Of a DNA stretch of 15,606 bases, positions 8,347 through 15,606 are shown piece by piece (the stretch's first letter is position 1; the number at the start of each line of letters is the position of its first letter). A program made the translations under genes and the position numbers. The notes under the pieces are model-generated. The model was not told the DNA's origin, did no database searches, and saw only the letters and a program-made list of their open reading frames with translations. The DNA comes from an uncultured Coprococcus sp. (lineage in GTDB: Bacteria; Bacillota_A; Clostridia; Lachnospirales; Lachnospiraceae), in contig CAAGAB010000330.1 of NCBI GenBank assembly GCA_900767685.1, positions 1-15,606 of the forward strand, read 5' to 3'.

Positions 8347-8457
8347 CTCGTACCTCGTATTTTTATATTTGCAGCCGCCCGCTCTGTCTGTTGTCTGTTC
8401 ATGTTCTTTGTCTTCCAGCCGACTGCATATTCCGTAACACAGATATATAAACAGCAC

Positions 8458-8484
8458 AAAAGGACTGCCGGCAGCAGTCCTTTT
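8458..8484. terminator. Perfect hairpin with T-run in the fabF leader (bidirectional terminator shape)
   Basis: AAAAGGACTGC (8458-8468) and GCAGTCCTTTT (8474-8484) are perfect 11-bp arms around a 5-base loop. The sequence has terminator form on both strands, although the T-run is only 4 long. It could end the upstream 1609-residue gene's transcript, or act in the fabF leader, because the fabF promoter candidate lies upstream of it. Confidence 0.6.
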
Positions 8485-8557
8485 GGTCTATAAGCCATCG
8501 TTCTTCGCCCGATGACCACATGCACATCACTGTGCTTTCTGCGTCCCAGATATATAG

Positions 8558-8586
8558 ATTTTACCATAAGGTGATATATATAACAA
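8558..8586 (-). promoter_or_regulatory. Promoter candidate for fabF
   Basis: On the minus strand, TTGTTA (8581-8586) and TAAAAT (8558-8563) are 17 bases apart. The start would be near 8551, giving a leader of about 205 bases. Confidence 0.5.
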
Positions 8587-8684
8587 GGATAAATAGTATT
8601 GATTACTATGTTTGATTGTGCTATATAGGTTGCAGACTGATATATTATTTTTTTGTACTAAAATCTATCTCTATGCATAGAATC

Positions 8685-11600
8685 TTATCTCCATGATGAA
8701 TAATAATATCTGGTGCCAACCTTCCTATACGCGCGAACCCTTATATAATACTTTGTTCCCTGCTTCAGATTTCTGATTGTATAAGAACTCTGTTTCCTGC
8801 CAGAAATAACTACTGATTTTACACCGGAAGAAAAATTCTTTTTATCTGAGTATTGCAGCTGGTATCCCGATACCAAAGCATTTGTCTTCCAGCTCAGCTG
8901 GCATGCCGTTAAGGTTTTCTTTTTAATAGAAAATGTCACCGGACTAATGTAATATGTTGATACCCTTGCAGATCCATCGGAAACATATTTAACGCTGCCG
9001 TTCTTTCTATAGGCAACCACAAAATAACTATATTTCATTCCATTTACATTGGCTTTAGAATCCGCATATTTTATCGTTCCGCCGCCCTGAATGTTCTTTA
9101 TAAGCTTATACTTTCCAGATTCACCGGCTCTATATATTTCATATCCGGTCGCTCCTGTTGTCTTATTCCATGAGACATTTATTCCACCAGCTGCTGCCTG
9201 CAAATGTACTGAAGGCTTTGCCAGATAAATAACTGGTTTAAACGCTGTACCACATACGCTACATTTTTTATGACGCTTGCCCATGGATACCGTTGTCGCT
9301 TTTTTATCTATTACCCACTTATAACTATGAGCTTTTTTTGCTATTGTTTTACCCGTCTTCAGCTTTTTACCACAATCTTTACAATAGGTATCTCCTGTAT
9401 ATCCATTACTTGTACACGTTGCTGCTTTCTTACCATTAAGTACCGTGTTCTTGTGTTCTCCCTTTATTTCAAATGTCTTATCAATACTTCCTGAATAATT
9501 ACCAATACCAGTTATTGTCACAAGGGCTGTACCTATATCTGTGTTATCTGCATAGCTTGTCTTGTAATCCTTACCATATACGAGAGCCCTTCCATCAACT
9601 GATATCTCAATTTTTGTCTGAAGCGGCTTACCTGTGTACTCACAATCAGCGACCTTAACAGATGCCGCCTCATCAAGCTGGCGCTCTGTAATATTGAATA
9701 ACTTCACATACTTTCCTGAATAGCCGTTTATAACCTTCACTACAACTATTCCATAGCCGACATTTTTATTATTCTGATAACTTACTGTATAATCTGTGTC
9801 CTCCACCAGCTGATATTTTCCATCTTTCGCTGTTATCGATGGCTTGATCAAATCGCCTGTATACACAACATCTGGAATATCTTCAATACTGATCTTACTG
9901 CAATCGCCTGCGATTACATTATACTTGATATTCCTTGTACCGGTATACAGTCCTTTTCCAGAAATTGTCGCAGTGTGTTCTCCCACATCTCCTGCAAGAT
10001 CACCAGCCAACTCATAATCTACACCCTCTGTCAATTTCTTTCCCTCATATATTACATCTGGTGAAACTTTTCTTACTCCGCCACAATAGATAATATCAGG
10101 GACATCTATTTCCGCATTTTCTATTGAATTCTGTGTCTTTGCTACCACAAATTCTGTTGACATATCATATTCTGCTGTCGGAACATAATCCAGAGATATC
10201 TCACCATTCTCATCAGCTGTCAACTGCTGTATGTATAACACATTATCACCTGTAAATGGCCTGTCTTCACCTCTATATTTCAGAGAATAAAAGTTGTATA
10301 TCTCCCCCGGAGTAAGGTTTTTAAACGATACACTATGAATATTGCCCGATTTAGCTGAGGTATCTGCCAATACAGCAACACTGTCTATGTCTACATCCTG
10401 TGCAGCATCCATATTCTCTGTATCCACAGCTGACACGACCGCCGTATCTCCAGATTTTTTCGCAGAAGAAAGTTCTGAAATATCTGGCTCTAACGGTATC
10501 TTCTGTGGTGTTGTGGATGCAGTCGTTGTTCCGTTGCCAAGCTGACCTTGGGAATTAGTGCGCCCCCAAGTGTAAACACTGCCATCATTGGTCATTGCCA
10601 GTGCATGATATGTGGACGGTTCTCCATAACGATACCAATCAGAACCACCAACTGATATATCCTGAACATCAGAAAGCATCATCGACATTGTTTTTGAAAC
10701 GCCCCATCCGCACATATAAACATTTCCATCTTTAGACAAAATCATCGTTTCATATCCACTTAGCGACACTTTTTTCACATTGCTTGCCACACGCTTAGGC
10801 ACCTGCTCACAAGCTTGTGTATCATTTCCCAGCTGTCCAAACTGATTATCCCCCCATAAATACAGTTTTCCATCCTTCGTTACAGCTGCACCATGTCTGT
10901 TTCCCATACTTGCAGATTCTATATTTGACATTATTTTTCTAGGAGTTGCTATATCACTGGTGTTACCTGTGCCTAAAGCATAATACGATCCACCGCCCCA
11001 CACATAAAGATTGCCCTCTTTATCAACTGCTGAAACATTGCTACAACGATATTCCTCATTATTTATTGAAACCGATACGCTTTCTATATCATCCATTATT
11101 TTCTGTGGCATCGAACATTTAGCATCTTCCGTACTTCCATTACCAAGTGAACCTCTATATGTTCTTCCCCACGTAAATAACTGTCCATCATTTTTTATCA
11201 CCGCAGTCATATATGTACCACAGGCCACCATCTTAACATTCTTCATGACAAGTTTAGGGACTTTAACATATGATTCGGTTTCTCCATTTCCGATCTGTCC
11301 ATATAGATTTGATCCCCACATGTACAAATCACCATTTTTCATGACGACTGCGCTGTGACTATAACCCATACTAACCTGCGCAACTTCACCAGATGGAAGC
11401 ATCCCCTCTACGTTATTATTTGTTATACTGACCGGACTGTATCTGTCCTGACTGGATCCATCCCCGGCATACGCAGATCCCCATGTATAGAGATCTCCAC
11501 TGCTTGTAACTACAGCAGACGAATATCCCCCTGCGCTCACCATAGGCTCATACTTATCCTGCTCATCGTCCTGATCACGGTTGTCATCGCCGCCTGAACC

Positions 11601-13514
11601 ACCTATGTACAATTCCATACTCGTGGTCGTCTCAGTTACATTATACGAAGCAGTTGCTTTATAACTTCCCTTGTAAGCACTTATGGTCTGTTCTCCCGGA
11701 GACAAAATCAATTTAGCGACACCATTCGAATTCGTCTTCACACTATCATTTACTATCGCGCCTTCCACCGGCTTTCCATTTCCGTCTTTTACCGTAACCG
11801 TCAGCTCATATTTCAGGTATGGACATTTTGAAAATCCTCCTTGCTTATGTGTGAACGAATAGTAAAAATCTCCCATCTTTTCTTTTATTTCAAGTGGCGT
11901 ATATTCCGGTGAATATTTTTTAAACAAAGTTGCCTTAATCTTTATATTCATAACAAAGTTAATCACGCCACTTATACAATCTGTACAATCGTGTTTTTCA
12001 GAACCATTTCCTGTTGCATCGAGCAATGTTGCAACAATCTCCACTCCAACTGTACTTTCAAGTCCTACATTCACAACATCATCATGAGCCAGATATACTC
12101 TTGGATTAAGTTTTATGCCAATAAAGAAAGTTGCCTTAACCTTTAACTCTGATTTGAACGTTGGTGTCTTCGATCTGTCACTGATTCCCGATTTATTTGA
12201 TATAGCTGTTCCAACACTCTGGGTCATGACACCGCTGGCAGTTATATCACCACTGAGTTTTATCACAAATTCAGGAGATAATGCTAATCCCCCCAGCCCT
12301 GCAACAGGTATGTTCACTTTTCCCAAAGGGAGTGTTAACATATCTGTTTCTCCCTTAAACTGAATAGAAACACCAACTATACTATTTACATTGAATTCAA
12401 CATACTGATAGGAAAACGAAAGATAGTATTTAAACGATACTCCAATCTGTGCTTCCATTTTAACTTGGCCCGTATACTTGCCTTCACCAATAGTATAATC
12501 GAAGCCAAACTTTTTACTAGCGGAAAGATCTCCATCCTTTTCAAATACTGATGCTAATTCTCCATCCGACGCATCCTTGAGTCCATTATATTTTCCATAT
12601 TTCACAGCATCTGCAGGATCATAGTTGTTATCATCGAGGGTTGCTGTCATTTCATATCTTACATACTCAAAAGCCTCTTCAATTCCATCATCACTTTTAG
12701 TTATTGTTGCCTTATTTCCGTCTATCGATATATCGCCAACATTTACAATTATGGTATCTGTACCATTATAGTTATACGCAAATATATCGCCTTTTTTTAG
12801 TTCAGATATATTACTATCTATGTTGTCAAATACATACTCTCCCTTGTCTTCATCTATTTGCTCTACTGTATTGACACCCTCTTTTTCTGTTATCACCGTT
12901 GTACTGTCAGAAAAAACAGCAAAATTATCTTCGTCTTTGTTATCGAGACTTAATACCTTGTCCTGATCAAAATCAGACTGCTTTTTTGAAAAAAACTCCT
13001 GCATCTCCTGCGTATAATTTGGTGTCTCGAACTTTGAACACAAAGGTCTTCCATTTACAGGATCTATCAAAAAAGCTCTCAAGTAGAAATATTGAGGCAT
13101 GTCTGTCGTATCTATAGTCACCTCAGCACTTGTTTCTCCAGCTGATACATCCGCATTTCCAATTGCAAGCATGCTATCTCCGGCTTCATTGTAAATAGCC
13201 ACGACCAGCTGAGCGTTACTCAGTGTCTCAAAACTCACATTTGCTTTTACCCCATTCATTTCAACAGAAAAAATATTATGACCATCATTAGCCTTTTCAT
13301 TCTCTGCCTTTTCGTCAAGTTTATCGGCAACCATTTTTCCTATATCACTAGATGCCTCCAGCCTCGTCCCATCCGTATTCAACTTTGCCGCATTTTTGCT
13401 TCCTGCTGCCGACACTGAAGCATCTGCTTTAATTGTCGATGGGAATAATCCCATCACAACTGAAAAAACAAGTAAAATACTCAGTATCTTTCTCATGGTT
13501 GTTTTCTTTCTCAT
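8685..13514 (-). CDS. Large secreted protein: Ig-like, seven-blade RCC1 propeller, YDG-like, Cys-pair module and two FN3 domains
   Basis: The 1609-residue protein starts with a signal peptide (about 1-30, MRKILSILLVFSVVMGLF). Residues 80-565 are beta-rich and unassigned. An Ig-like domain follows (about 568-636, VKDGNGKPVEGAIV), then an acidic linker (638-657). Seven RCC1-type repeats run 658-995, each with a GDLYTWG-type core, four of them followed by a GxLGNG-type turn. That is enough for a closed propeller. Next come YDG-like modules (about 1210-1275 and 1288-1350, with VYTGDLIKP and CEYTGKPL) and a four-Cys segment (C1367, C1378, C1381, then C1418/C1421 with nearby His). Two FN3 domains end the protein (1430-1520, 1523-1609). 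The last FN3 stops abruptly at SSWR. No LPXTG, SLH or wall-binding repeat is seen, so it may be released or held by partners. GAGGAGG lies 6 bases before the ATG at 13514. The ligand is unknown. Confidence 0.9.
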   Translation of the reverse strand: MRKKTTMRKILSILLVFSVVMGLFPSTIKADASVSAAGSKNAAKLNTDGTRLEASSDIGKMVADKLDEKAENEKANDGHNIFSVEMNGVKANVSFETLSNAQLVVAIYNEAGDSMLAIGNADVSAGETSAEVTIDTTDMPQYFYLRAFLIDPVNGRPLCSKFETPNYTQEMQEFFSKKQSDFDQDKVLSLDNKDEDNFAVFSDSTTVITEKEGVNTVEQIDEDKGEYVFDNIDSNISELKKGDIFAYNYNGTDTIIVNVGDISIDGNKATITKSDDGIEEAFEYVRYEMTATLDDNNYDPADAVKYGKYNGLKDASDGELASVFEKDGDLSASKKFGFDYTIGEGKYTGQVKMEAQIGVSFKYYLSFSYQYVEFNVNSIVGVSIQFKGETDMLTLPLGKVNIPVAGLGGLALSPEFVIKLSGDITASGVMTQSVGTAISNKSGISDRSKTPTFKSELKVKATFFIGIKLNPRVYLAHDDVVNVGLESTVGVEIVATLLDATGNGSEKHDCTDCISGVINFVMNIKIKATLFKKYSPEYTPLEIKEKMGDFYYSFTHKQGGFSKCPYLKYELTVTVKDGNGKPVEGAIVNDSVKTNSNGVAKLILSPGEQTISAYKGSYKATASYNVTETTTSMELYIGGSGGDDNRDQDDEQDKYEPMVSAGGYSSAVVTSSGDLYTWGSAYAGDGSSQDRYSPVSITNNNVEGMLPSGEVAQVSMGYSHSAVVMKNGDLYMWGSNLYGQIGNGETESYVKVPKLVMKNVKMVACGTYMTAVIKNDGQLFTWGRTYRGSLGNGSTEDAKCSMPQKIMDDIESVSVSINNEEYRCSNVSAVDKEGNLYVWGGGSYYALGTGNTSDIATPRKIMSNIESASMGNRHGAAVTKDGKLYLWGDNQFGQLGNDTQACEQVPKRVASNVKKVSLSGYETMILSKDGNVYMCGWGVSKTMSMMLSDVQDISVGGSDWYRYGEPSTYHALAMTNDGSVYTWGRTNSQGQLGNGTTTASTTPQKIPLEPDISELSSAKKSGDTAVVSAVDTENMDAAQDVDIDSVAVLADTSAKSGNIHSVSFKNLTPGEIYNFYSLKYRGEDRPFTGDNVLYIQQLTADENGEISLDYVPTAEYDMSTEFVVAKTQNSIENAEIDVPDIIYCGGVRKVSPDVIYEGKKLTEGVDYELAGDLAGDVGEHTATISGKGLYTGTRNIKYNVIAGDCSKISIEDIPDVVYTGDLIKPSITAKDGKYQLVEDTDYTVSYQNNKNVGYGIVVVKVINGYSGKYVKLFNITERQLDEAASVKVADCEYTGKPLQTKIEISVDGRALVYGKDYKTSYADNTDIGTALVTITGIGNYSGSIDKTFEIKGEHKNTVLNGKKAATCTSNGYTGDTYCKDCGKKLKTGKTIAKKAHSYKWVIDKKATTVSMGKRHKKCSVCGTAFKPVIYLAKPSVHLQAAAGGINVSWNKTTGATGYEIYRAGESGKYKLIKNIQGGGTIKYADSKANVNGMKYSYFVVAYRKNGSVKYVSDGSARVSTYYISPVTFSIKKKTLTACQLSWKTNALVSGYQLQYSDKKNFSSGVKSVVISGRKQSSYTIRNLKQGTKYYIRVRAYRKVGTRYYYSSWR

Positions 13515-13545
13515 ATGTGCCCTCCTCGCATATTTTTATTAAAAT

Positions 13546-13614
13546 ATTTTAATATACCCCATACATGAAATGAACACGCCTTGCATAATTTGCTTATAAT
13601 CCTGCATAACTTGA
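13546..13614 (-). promoter_or_regulatory. LytTR-type operator pair and -10 box of the RCC1-protein gene
   Basis: On the minus strand, TCAAGTTATGCA (13603-13614) and GCAAATTATGCA (13582-13593) are direct repeats with a 21-bp period. TAAAAT (13546-13551) follows exactly 30 bases after the second repeat. No good -35 exists, which fits activator-dependent transcription. The same arrangement stands before the next secreted-protein gene. Confidence 0.68.
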
Positions 13615-13630
13615 GTTTTATGATTTAAAT

Positions 13631-13669
13631 AAAAAATCACCGTGACACCCTTATCGTATCACGATGATT
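13631..13669 (-). terminator. Intrinsic terminator of the DUF5050-like gene
   Basis: Arms 13635-13645 and 13659-13669 pair at 10 of 11 positions. On the minus strand TTTTTTATTT follows. It separates the two secreted-protein genes, which are therefore separate transcripts despite sharing direction. Confidence 0.85.
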
Positions 13670-13720
13670 CTCTTTGATTTATTTCTTTTGTTATTTGATT
13701 CTTCCCGCAACTTTTGAAAT

Positions 13721-14908
13721 TTATGGTATGTACTGATGTGTTGCAAGTCTGCTATGCAATGTTCTGGCCACGTTTCCTGTTTTTGATACAATCGCCAACT
13801 TCACAACACTTTCATTACATCCCGCCACAATCACATATTCACCAACATCATATATATCATATATTCTAAATGCAAATGTCCTGACAACCTTACTTTTGCC
13901 ATCAAGTTTTCTTATCAATCTGGATTCATAGCCATTACTTGTGTATGAATAACCATACGGATTGTTAGAAACATTCATGAAATTTTCCTTTGAATCATAT
14001 GGAGATGTCCATTTGCTTACGGAACTGGATGACGATATGCTTATCTGTTTTGTCCTTCCCTTACTTCCTATAAGATATGTATCCTGAGTAAATCCATAAT
14101 AACCGACGCCGTTCTGTATTCCCACCAGCTTATTATTTGCAACGCACAGCTCATATGAACCATTACATATAAACGTCTTTCCCGTTCCGTCTAACTTTAC
14201 CCTGTACACAGCTCCGCAGTAGACATAATATATGAAATTTCCTACTATCTTCGCATTTGAACCCTTTGCAAGGCATTTCTGCGAACGTCCATCCTTTGAT
14301 ATTCTATATACATACTCTGTGGACGAACTCGAACTTCTCTTCGCAGTGAAATATATATAATTACCTTTAATATCATCCAAGCTCATGCATTTGAGGCTTG
14401 TAAGCTTTTTCTTTTTATTTGTTGCCGGATTATAAGCATATAAAATATTTACATAATTCCAGTTACTGTCATATCTCTGCCTTATGTATATCAGTTTGCC
14501 ATCTGATAGCACCTTTCCACTTCTACGGATATGTATTCTGCTTGATACAGATATTTTGCATTTGTAGATTTTGCCATTTCCAAGTTTCGCAATCACATAG
14601 GCAGTTCCTCTGTTCTTTCCTGTTACACATCCATATGAATCAACAACTGCAACTGAGCTGTTAGAAGTGCTCCACCGAACTGACGATGTGGTTCCCTGTA
14701 CATACAGATTCACTCTCTGTCCCTTATCTAACTTGCAGCTACTGTAATTCAGTTTCACTGTTGCGGCCTGAGCCTCAACAATTCCCGCCTTCCAGCCATT
14801 GCCATCGGATAGCTGAGGGACATACACCATCCCAGCAAGGATCATAACAACAGCAATAATCACACTCAAAGTTCTTCTGGCAAGTCCAAATCTCGATTGT
14901 CTCCTCAT
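13721..14908 (-). CDS. Secreted Ig-like (Big_2 type) and DUF5050-like beta-propeller protein
   Basis: The 395 residues begin with a basic start and a signal peptide (about 1-48, cleavage likely after EAQA). A bacterial Ig-like group 2 domain follows (about 50-122: VRWSTSNSSVAVVDSYGCVTG, GTAYVIAKL). Then come short repeats of the type GNYIYFTAK...YVYRISKDG...KC and GNFIYYVYCGAVYRVKLDG, the pattern of DUF5050/propeller domains in clostridial surface proteins (about 130-380). No membrane anchor, sortase signal or catalytic motif is visible. GGAG lies 8 bases before the ATG at 14908. It has its own terminator and an operator pair like that of the RCC1 protein gene. The function is unknown; a scaffold or binding role outside the cell is inferred. 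Confidence 0.85.
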   Translation of the reverse strand: MRRQSRFGLARRTLSVIIAVVMILAGMVYVPQLSDGNGWKAGIVEAQAATVKLNYSSCKLDKGQRVNLYVQGTTSSVRWSTSNSSVAVVDSYGCVTGKNRGTAYVIAKLGNGKIYKCKISVSSRIHIRRSGKVLSDGKLIYIRQRYDSNWNYVNILYAYNPATNKKKKLTSLKCMSLDDIKGNYIYFTAKRSSSSSTEYVYRISKDGRSQKCLAKGSNAKIVGNFIYYVYCGAVYRVKLDGTGKTFICNGSYELCVANNKLVGIQNGVGYYGFTQDTYLIGSKGRTKQISISSSSSVSKWTSPYDSKENFMNVSNNPYGYSYTSNGYESRLIRKLDGKSKVVRTFAFRIYDIYDVGEYVIVAGCNESVVKLAIVSKTGNVARTLHSRLATHQYIP

Positions 14909-15009
14909 ATCTACCGCTCCTTCAATAATTCTAAACTGCGTTCAAAGAGTCTGTTCAATCAAAGCTCCTTGAAACATCTCTTTTCTCATAAAATTAAAGT
15001 TATGGATAT

Positions 15010-15079
15010 ATTTTACACAAATATCTGTTGTCACAAAATAAATCGTGCATAACTTTGCAATAATCTTGCACAACTTTGC
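15010..15079 (-). promoter_or_regulatory. LytTR-type operator pair and -10 box of the DUF5050-like gene
   Basis: On the minus strand, GCAAAGTTGTGCA (15067-15079) and GCAAAGTTATGCA (15046-15058) differ at one base and have a 21-bp period. TAAAAT (15010-15015) follows 30 bases after the second repeat. The start would be near 15003, leaving a leader of about 95 bases. No convincing -35 is seen. Confidence 0.72.
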
Positions 15080-15111
15080 TGTCTATACAAGGTATAACGA
15101 ATCAATATATT

Positions 15112-15606
15112 CTACTTCAGCAATCCTTTCTCCACCTTGAGTGAGAGTATTCTTCTCACACTCTCATCAATCCTGTCCTCGGTAATGTCACCGCTCTCAA
15201 CTGCCTGAACGATCGAATCCACCGCAGTATCTATGTCAGTTGGATCCAGAAGCATATCTATTCCGGCTTTTACAGCCATAACAGAAGACTCTCCCACACC
15301 ATAATTATCCGCTATGGAGCCCATAGCCAGAGAATCTGTAATTGCTATTCCATTGAAATCCATCTCGTTTCTGAGCATCTCAGTTGTTATCTTGTATGAA
15401 AGTGTGGCTGGGAGTTCATCTATATCCGGAACTATAAGATGTCCAACCATCACAAAGTCTGCTCCTGCATCTATGCCGGCTTTAAATGGCTGCATCTCGT
15501 CCGCCATAATCTCATCCTTTGTCCGCTTCACATAGGCGCTGCTGTAGTGTGAATCCTCCGCTGTATCGCCATGTCCAGGGAAATGCTTCAGCGTACACAT
15601 TATATC
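15112..15606 (-). CDS. Glycoside hydrolase family 3, NagZ-like beta-N-acetylhexosaminidase, C-terminal part (runs off the right edge)
   Basis: The visible 164 residues are the end of the GH3 N-terminal barrel type used to remove beta-linked GlcNAc, for example from muropeptides. KHFPGHGDTAEDSH is the loop holding the Asp-His general acid/base pair special to NagZ enzymes. FNGIAITDSLAMGSI holds the nucleophile Asp. The helix ending VRRILSLKVEKG closes the barrel. The frame is open to 15606, so the start lies outside; the Met at 15600 is internal. It stops at 15112 with no second GH3 domain and no clear terminator before the next operator pair, so readthrough into the DUF5050-like gene is possible. 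Confidence 0.92.
   Translation of the reverse strand, partial: DIMCTLKHFPGHGDTAEDSHYSSAYVKRTKDEIMADEMQPFKAGIDAGADFVMVGHLIVPDIDELPATLSYKITTEMLRNEMDFNGIAITDSLAMGSIADNYGVGESSVMAVKAGIDMLLDPTDIDTAVDSIVQAVESGDITEDRIDESVRRILSLKVEKGLLK

Follow-up and report, generated by a model that had tools for sequence, protein, structure and literature searches.

The described systems that come closest to the locus analysed here are promoters activated through paired direct repeats. In the excerpts of the report on promoters of LytTR Regulatory Systems (LRS), 9-bp repeats are mostly separated by 12 bp, and the distance from them to the -35 element downstream is most often 10 bp (PMC6193735). By our own arithmetic from the table in those excerpts, the distance from repeat to -10 box is 33 nt in 6 of the 9 rows covered, 32 nt in two and 34 nt in one (PMC6193735). 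According to excerpts of two further reports, VirR boxes immediately precede the -35 element and need correct phasing (PMC2838878), and the critical G's of the RgaR-activated spoZ promoter are at -72 and -51 (PMC10602386). Direct LytTR targets in gut Lachnospiraceae seem to be little described; among the titles listed for the open-licence literature on LytTR regulators in Lachnospiraceae and on AgrB in Coprococcus, none pointed to such a regulon.

We analysed a window of 15,606 nucleotides, the whole stretch taken from contig CAAGAB010000330.1 of an uncultured Coprococcus sp. The results showed that the word AARTTRTGCA has four exact copies in the window and no others, all on the minus strand and arranged as two pairs, each with a period of 21. 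The first pair (P1, 13612-13582) is composed of a distal repeat AAGTTATGCA at 13603..13612 and a proximal repeat AAATTATGCA at 13582..13591, in which core position 3 is A and not G. The second pair (P2, 15076-15046) is composed of a distal repeat AAGTTGTGCA at 15067..15076 and a proximal repeat AAGTTATGCA at 15046..15055. The first-pass annotation had given the word as CAARTTRTGCA with this period; the period was confirmed, but the 11-mer is exact only before 13514, the preceding base before 14908 being A, and the word common to both is the 10-mer. No further period-21 pair was counted in the window at ≤3 mismatches, and in 100 dinucleotide-shuffled versions of the entire window there were six such pairs in total, compared to the two observed at 0 mismatches. 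A four-unit similarity statistic, in which both the word and the period (15-30) were left free, reached 54/60 for the observed repeats, and the best value among 1000 shuffles was 47, so that chance is a poor explanation of the repeats. At both promoters the hexamer TAAAAT begins 31 bases past the final repeat base, exactly as annotated, placing putative -10 boxes on the minus strand at 13546..13551 (P1) and 15010..15015 (P2). Recomputing the best gap-free 32-bp blocks of P1 and P2 also reproduced the annotated 24 identical positions, a value reached by 0 of 200 shuffles of the upstream stretches (best 23). The twin operators are very probably a real pair.

Aligning P1 with P2, we found that their likeness is mostly restricted to the repeats, the GATTA of the spacer and the -10 register. 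This alignment bears on the possibility that the blocks have no role in regulation today and descend from a duplicated promoter or a small mobile repeat. Such a remnant would fit the adjacency of the two genes and the differences upstream of fabF among the three nearest MAG loci; a decayed copy, however, would not be expected to retain the repeats and their spacing selectively, and we consider this origin very unlikely.

Both P1 and P2 have a pair of direct repeats spaced by about 21 bp, which is a trait of LytTR-type operators. We aligned the window with the LRS repeats in a 9-mer register ending in AGTTAT or AATTAT, chosen because one B. cereus LRS repeat ends likewise; in this register, on which the figure depends, the 9-mer lies 33 nt from the predicted -10 box at both promoters. 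Given this register and these predicted boxes, the repeats also show a second LytTR trait, a location directly upstream of the -35 position with nearly constant spacing to the -10 box. Compared by eye, the 9-mers ending in AGTTAT agree with one B. cereus LRS repeat at 6 or 7 of 9 positions, and the proximal repeat of P1 has AATTAT. The window thus shares with the LRS promoters the 9-12-9 bp direct repeats and the distance to the -10 box that prevails in the excerpted table, whereas the repeats given there are mostly ACCACTTAC-like and the window core is AGTTAT/AATTAT; the window also contains no recognised operon of a regulator and a membrane inhibitor (PMC6193735). If the -10 box begins at -12, base 3 of the window core falls at -71 and -50 and is G and A at P1, and G and G at P2. 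As far as the excerpts of the clostridial reports describe them, the VirR and RgaR boxes likewise consist of two direct repeats preceding the -35 element, with critical G's 21 apart at a nearly equal promoter position and with few direct targets, but the proximal repeat of P1 has A at the critical G, and the putative targets in the window are an RCC1-repeat protein and a Big_2 protein (PMC2838878, PMC10602386). AgrA sites, in the excerpts of the corresponding report, resemble the window sites as tandem direct repeats upstream of promoters with suboptimal -35/-10 spacing; they differ in that the promoter-proximal repeats are centred near -60, and the window has no agr operon (PMC4227749).

A sigma-70 scan found no minus-strand -35/-10 pair at P1 or P2, and by eye the -35 positions at 17-nt spacing read TTCATT and TTTTGT. 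The scan reported 15 promoter-like sites in the region compared to a shuffle mean of 7.0. One of them, on the plus strand at 13571-13600 (TGAACA, 18 nt, TATAAT; 10/12 matches), overlaps the proximal P1 repeat. We also observed a single inverted near-copy of the repeat, AAGTTATGGA, on the plus strand at 14997-15006 over the expected P2 start site, which is possibly repressive and possibly due to chance.

The annotation had taken direct repeats two helical turns apart, together with a missing -35, as the hallmark of LytTR regulators. The geometry, together with the double site in genome G008 described below, supports the LytTR class, but the period of 21 alone is no hallmark, because AraC-type sites have it too. 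AraC/XylS-type activators bind direct repeats about 21 bp apart, and the period of the window repeats would fit them. The window repeats, however, are single 10-bp blocks, and their gap to the -10 box is 30 nt, whereas AggR, the sole member of the family compared, occupies a site that overlaps the -35 element and lies 21-22 bp before the -10 box according to the excerpts of its report (PMC6392122). The 30-nt gap leaves no AggR-like proximal site overlapping the -35 position, and an AraC/XylS-type activator appears unlikely here. Between the repeats of both operators sits GATTAT, creating a 10-11-bp periodicity that could be recognised by other regulators. An OmpR/PhoB-type response regulator might accordingly occupy three or four tandem 10-11-bp units with GATTAT as a weak middle unit, and by eye TTAT/TTGT does recur at 10-11-bp steps in both blocks. 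Since the middle unit is poor and, by eye, absent at the G008 site, and since the blocks stop 30 nt upstream of the -10 box, we regard this assignment as improbable. DnaA boxes were considered and dropped because the repeats are arranged in tandem upstream of two genes. On this comparison, the P1 and P2 blocks are likely, though by no means certain, to be twin activator sites of LytTR type.

The genes behind the operators are arranged on the minus strand as a GH3 gene truncated at the end of the window, a gene for a 395-aa protein (13721..14908, starting at 14908) and a gene for a 1609-aa protein (8685..13514, starting at 13514). By Pfam, the larger protein has RCC1 repeats and Fn3, and the smaller one a Big_2 domain; both are probably secreted, judging from signal-like N-termini. 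Structure prediction for the 395-aa protein gave a weak model (mean pLDDT 50.8), with an all-beta C-terminal part. Among the 50 of 919 rows listed by a PDB search with this model, many are propeller proteins by name, with low TM-scores to the query of 0.14-0.36. In an alignment of six members of the 395-aa family we obtained one DUF5050 match (E 7e-13) and two Kelch_6 matches; the DUF5050 match belonged to one homologue, and the protein of the window itself did not match DUF5050. These data give only a hint that the 395-aa protein is a propeller. The annotated pair of extracellular propeller proteins is therefore backed by RCC1 matches for the 1609-aa protein, and for the 395-aa protein by the weak model and the DUF5050 match of one homologue.

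Five homologues of the 395-aa protein (P0001-P0005) were available as protein sequences only. A search of genome contigs gave no locus for the 395-aa protein, 397 family genomes gave no match at E≤1e-20, and 144 relatives, searched with homologue P0003 as well, gave none; with no positive genome, each of these empty results is uninformative. In 5/5 genus genomes the 395-aa protein was matched only by N-terminal stretches (within residues 1-172). Viral contigs yielded 0 promoter matches and 0 homologues.

Downstream of the 395-aa gene, the minus strand carries a terminator-like hairpin with a U tract at 13618..13690, with a folding energy of -24.4 kcal/mol (z -8.4; 0/200 shuffles as good). A simple consensus terminator scan reported 0 sites in 13480-15140 and missed this hairpin. 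The hairpin suggests separate transcripts for the 395-aa and 1609-aa genes; if it terminates transcription, the 1609-aa gene requires a promoter of its own, and P1 fits this need. After the GH3 gene, the consensus scan found no terminator, so that read-through from there into the 395-aa gene is possible.

The annotation had placed the regulator outside the window. None of the 15 window ORFs scanned gave a LytTR match, which counts against the LytTR reading. LytTR genes were present in 3/3 genus genomes searched, with 8, 12 and 5 matches, and AgrB matches were present in 4/5 genus genomes, 10 in all, several of them beside LytTR genes. We then searched 397 family genomes for AGTTNTGCA-N6..18-AGTTNTGCA and obtained 18 hits in 18 genomes compared to 2 for the reversed pattern. 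The spacer was 12 in five hits and 15 in three, while 6, 10, 11 and 18 occurred twice each and 13 and 14 once each. Among the spacer-12 hits, 4/5 overlap ORFs of at least 224 aa, and the fifth is the site in G008. There, AGTTATGCA-N12-AGTTATGCA is flanked by a GH3 gene and, in divergent orientation, a receiver-LytTR gene that is followed by a GHKL kinase gene; the distance from the double site to TAGACT, itself preceded by TGC, is 32 nt. A 136-aa ORF with a TTG start also crosses the site and was taken for chance. Around it (L161, 3120-11648), two GH3 genes with a GtrA-like gene between them (its match being below the Pfam cut-off) are divergent from the LytTR response regulator and GHKL kinase genes. 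This locus is a candidate for a LytTR-controlled glycosidase locus.

Searching 1.5 kb on each side of the motif loci with our own HMM, we found a LytTR neighbour at 1/26 loci (25 distinct sites), namely in G008. By a rough estimate that uses 5-12 LytTR matches per genus genome, the chance of one such neighbour is about 1/5 for all 25 sites and about 5% for the five with spacer 12, and the promoter register at G008 lowers this probability further. The closest relative of the G008 regulator (56%) has no such site at its locus. Relaxed motif pairs at 25 genus LytTR loci and 30 loci of G008-regulator homologues occurred at all periods 19-23, and with the exception of the G008 site they look like noise. 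An upstream scan of the 25 genus LytTR loci, whose start codons are uncertain, found repeats of period 20-23 in four, all of other sequence. In G005, a genus genome consisting of a single contig, an operon of agrB, a LytTR regulator gene and a GHKL gene is accompanied by ACCATTCAC-N12-ACCACTCAC, a 9-12-9 arrangement 32 nt before TATACT. This was the sole period-21 repeat among the 7/10 AgrB places scanned; three others had a period of 20 or 22. The G005 site is situated within a long inverted repeat upstream of its agrB operon (L206, 4390-4500), which has, by eye, LytTR-like direct repeats in both arms.

Other results weigh against the LytTR reading. In five genus genomes the motif pair was absent at 0-1 mismatch. 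At ≤3 mismatches these genomes gave 71 hits compared to 14 for the reversed pattern, a control of different composition, and we draw nothing from this five-fold excess because composition may explain it. Both genus hits at 2 mismatches lie over ORFs; a divergent double hit in G004 was rejected as it lies inside an ORF. In 397 family genomes, 8 hits at ≤1 mismatch were obtained compared to 2 in the control, and 7/8 lie over ORFs of 60 aa or more. The eighth (L109) is an exact pair between ORFs, with no LytTR match within 1.5 kb and, by eye, no TAAAAT-like box at the matching distance. The motif was also absent from the 250 bp before the script-chosen start of 8 distant RCC1-protein genes (9 loci), two of which have unrelated repeats with periods of 21 and 23. 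Its absence in relatives indicates that the operator either diverges quickly or is limited to the species and its near relatives; fast divergence is described for LRS repeats in the excerpts consulted (PMC6193735).

Taking the P1 and P2 blocks as LytTR-type sites, a LytTR-domain regulator would bind both repeats from the same side of the helix, immediately upstream of a poor -35 element, and recruit RNA polymerase, and the same signal would switch on the 395-aa and 1609-aa genes. Of the two promoters, P1 would be the weaker, as A occupies the position of RgaR's critical G in its proximal repeat. The annotation had described a small regulon switched by a cell-density or surface-signal system. 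That both genes are turned on together through a common operator is well supported; cell density as the signal is a guess, conceivable because of AgrB matches in 4/5 genus genomes, and these matches are not tied to the operator. A broader proposal, which we put forward tentatively and consider doubtful, is that an Agr-like peptide-sensing LytTR system of a Coprococcus-related bacterium directly targets two extracellular proteins of adjacent genes, a giant RCC1-repeat protein and a Big_2/propeller protein, at two strengths set by the G-to-A change in the proximal box, as a quorum-controlled surface programme of a gut commensal. With its exact register, the twin operator provides a ready motif for tracing the regulon and its regulator once the species' complete genome can be searched, and it suggests signal control of a very large RCC1-repeat protein.

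The FabF protein of the window shares 98% identity with the FabF of a Clostridiales MAG (L005) and 92-93% with those of two MAGs titled Coprococcus (L002 and L001). The locus upstream of fabF (window 8374-15606) is variable, because the repeat-controlled gene pair replaces the genes found there in L005, L001 and L002. Genes resembling fabD and fabG (acyl-transferase, short-chain-reductase) lie upstream of fabF in L005 and L001, that is in 2/3 of the nearest MAG loci, and a sodium:alanine symporter gene lies directly upstream of fabF in L001 and L002. Elsewhere in the window, the class-III aminotransferase ORF at 5675-6807 matches only profile positions 118-301 of 403 and adjoins a second ORF in another frame without a Pfam match; this aminotransferase gene is possibly frameshifted or decayed.
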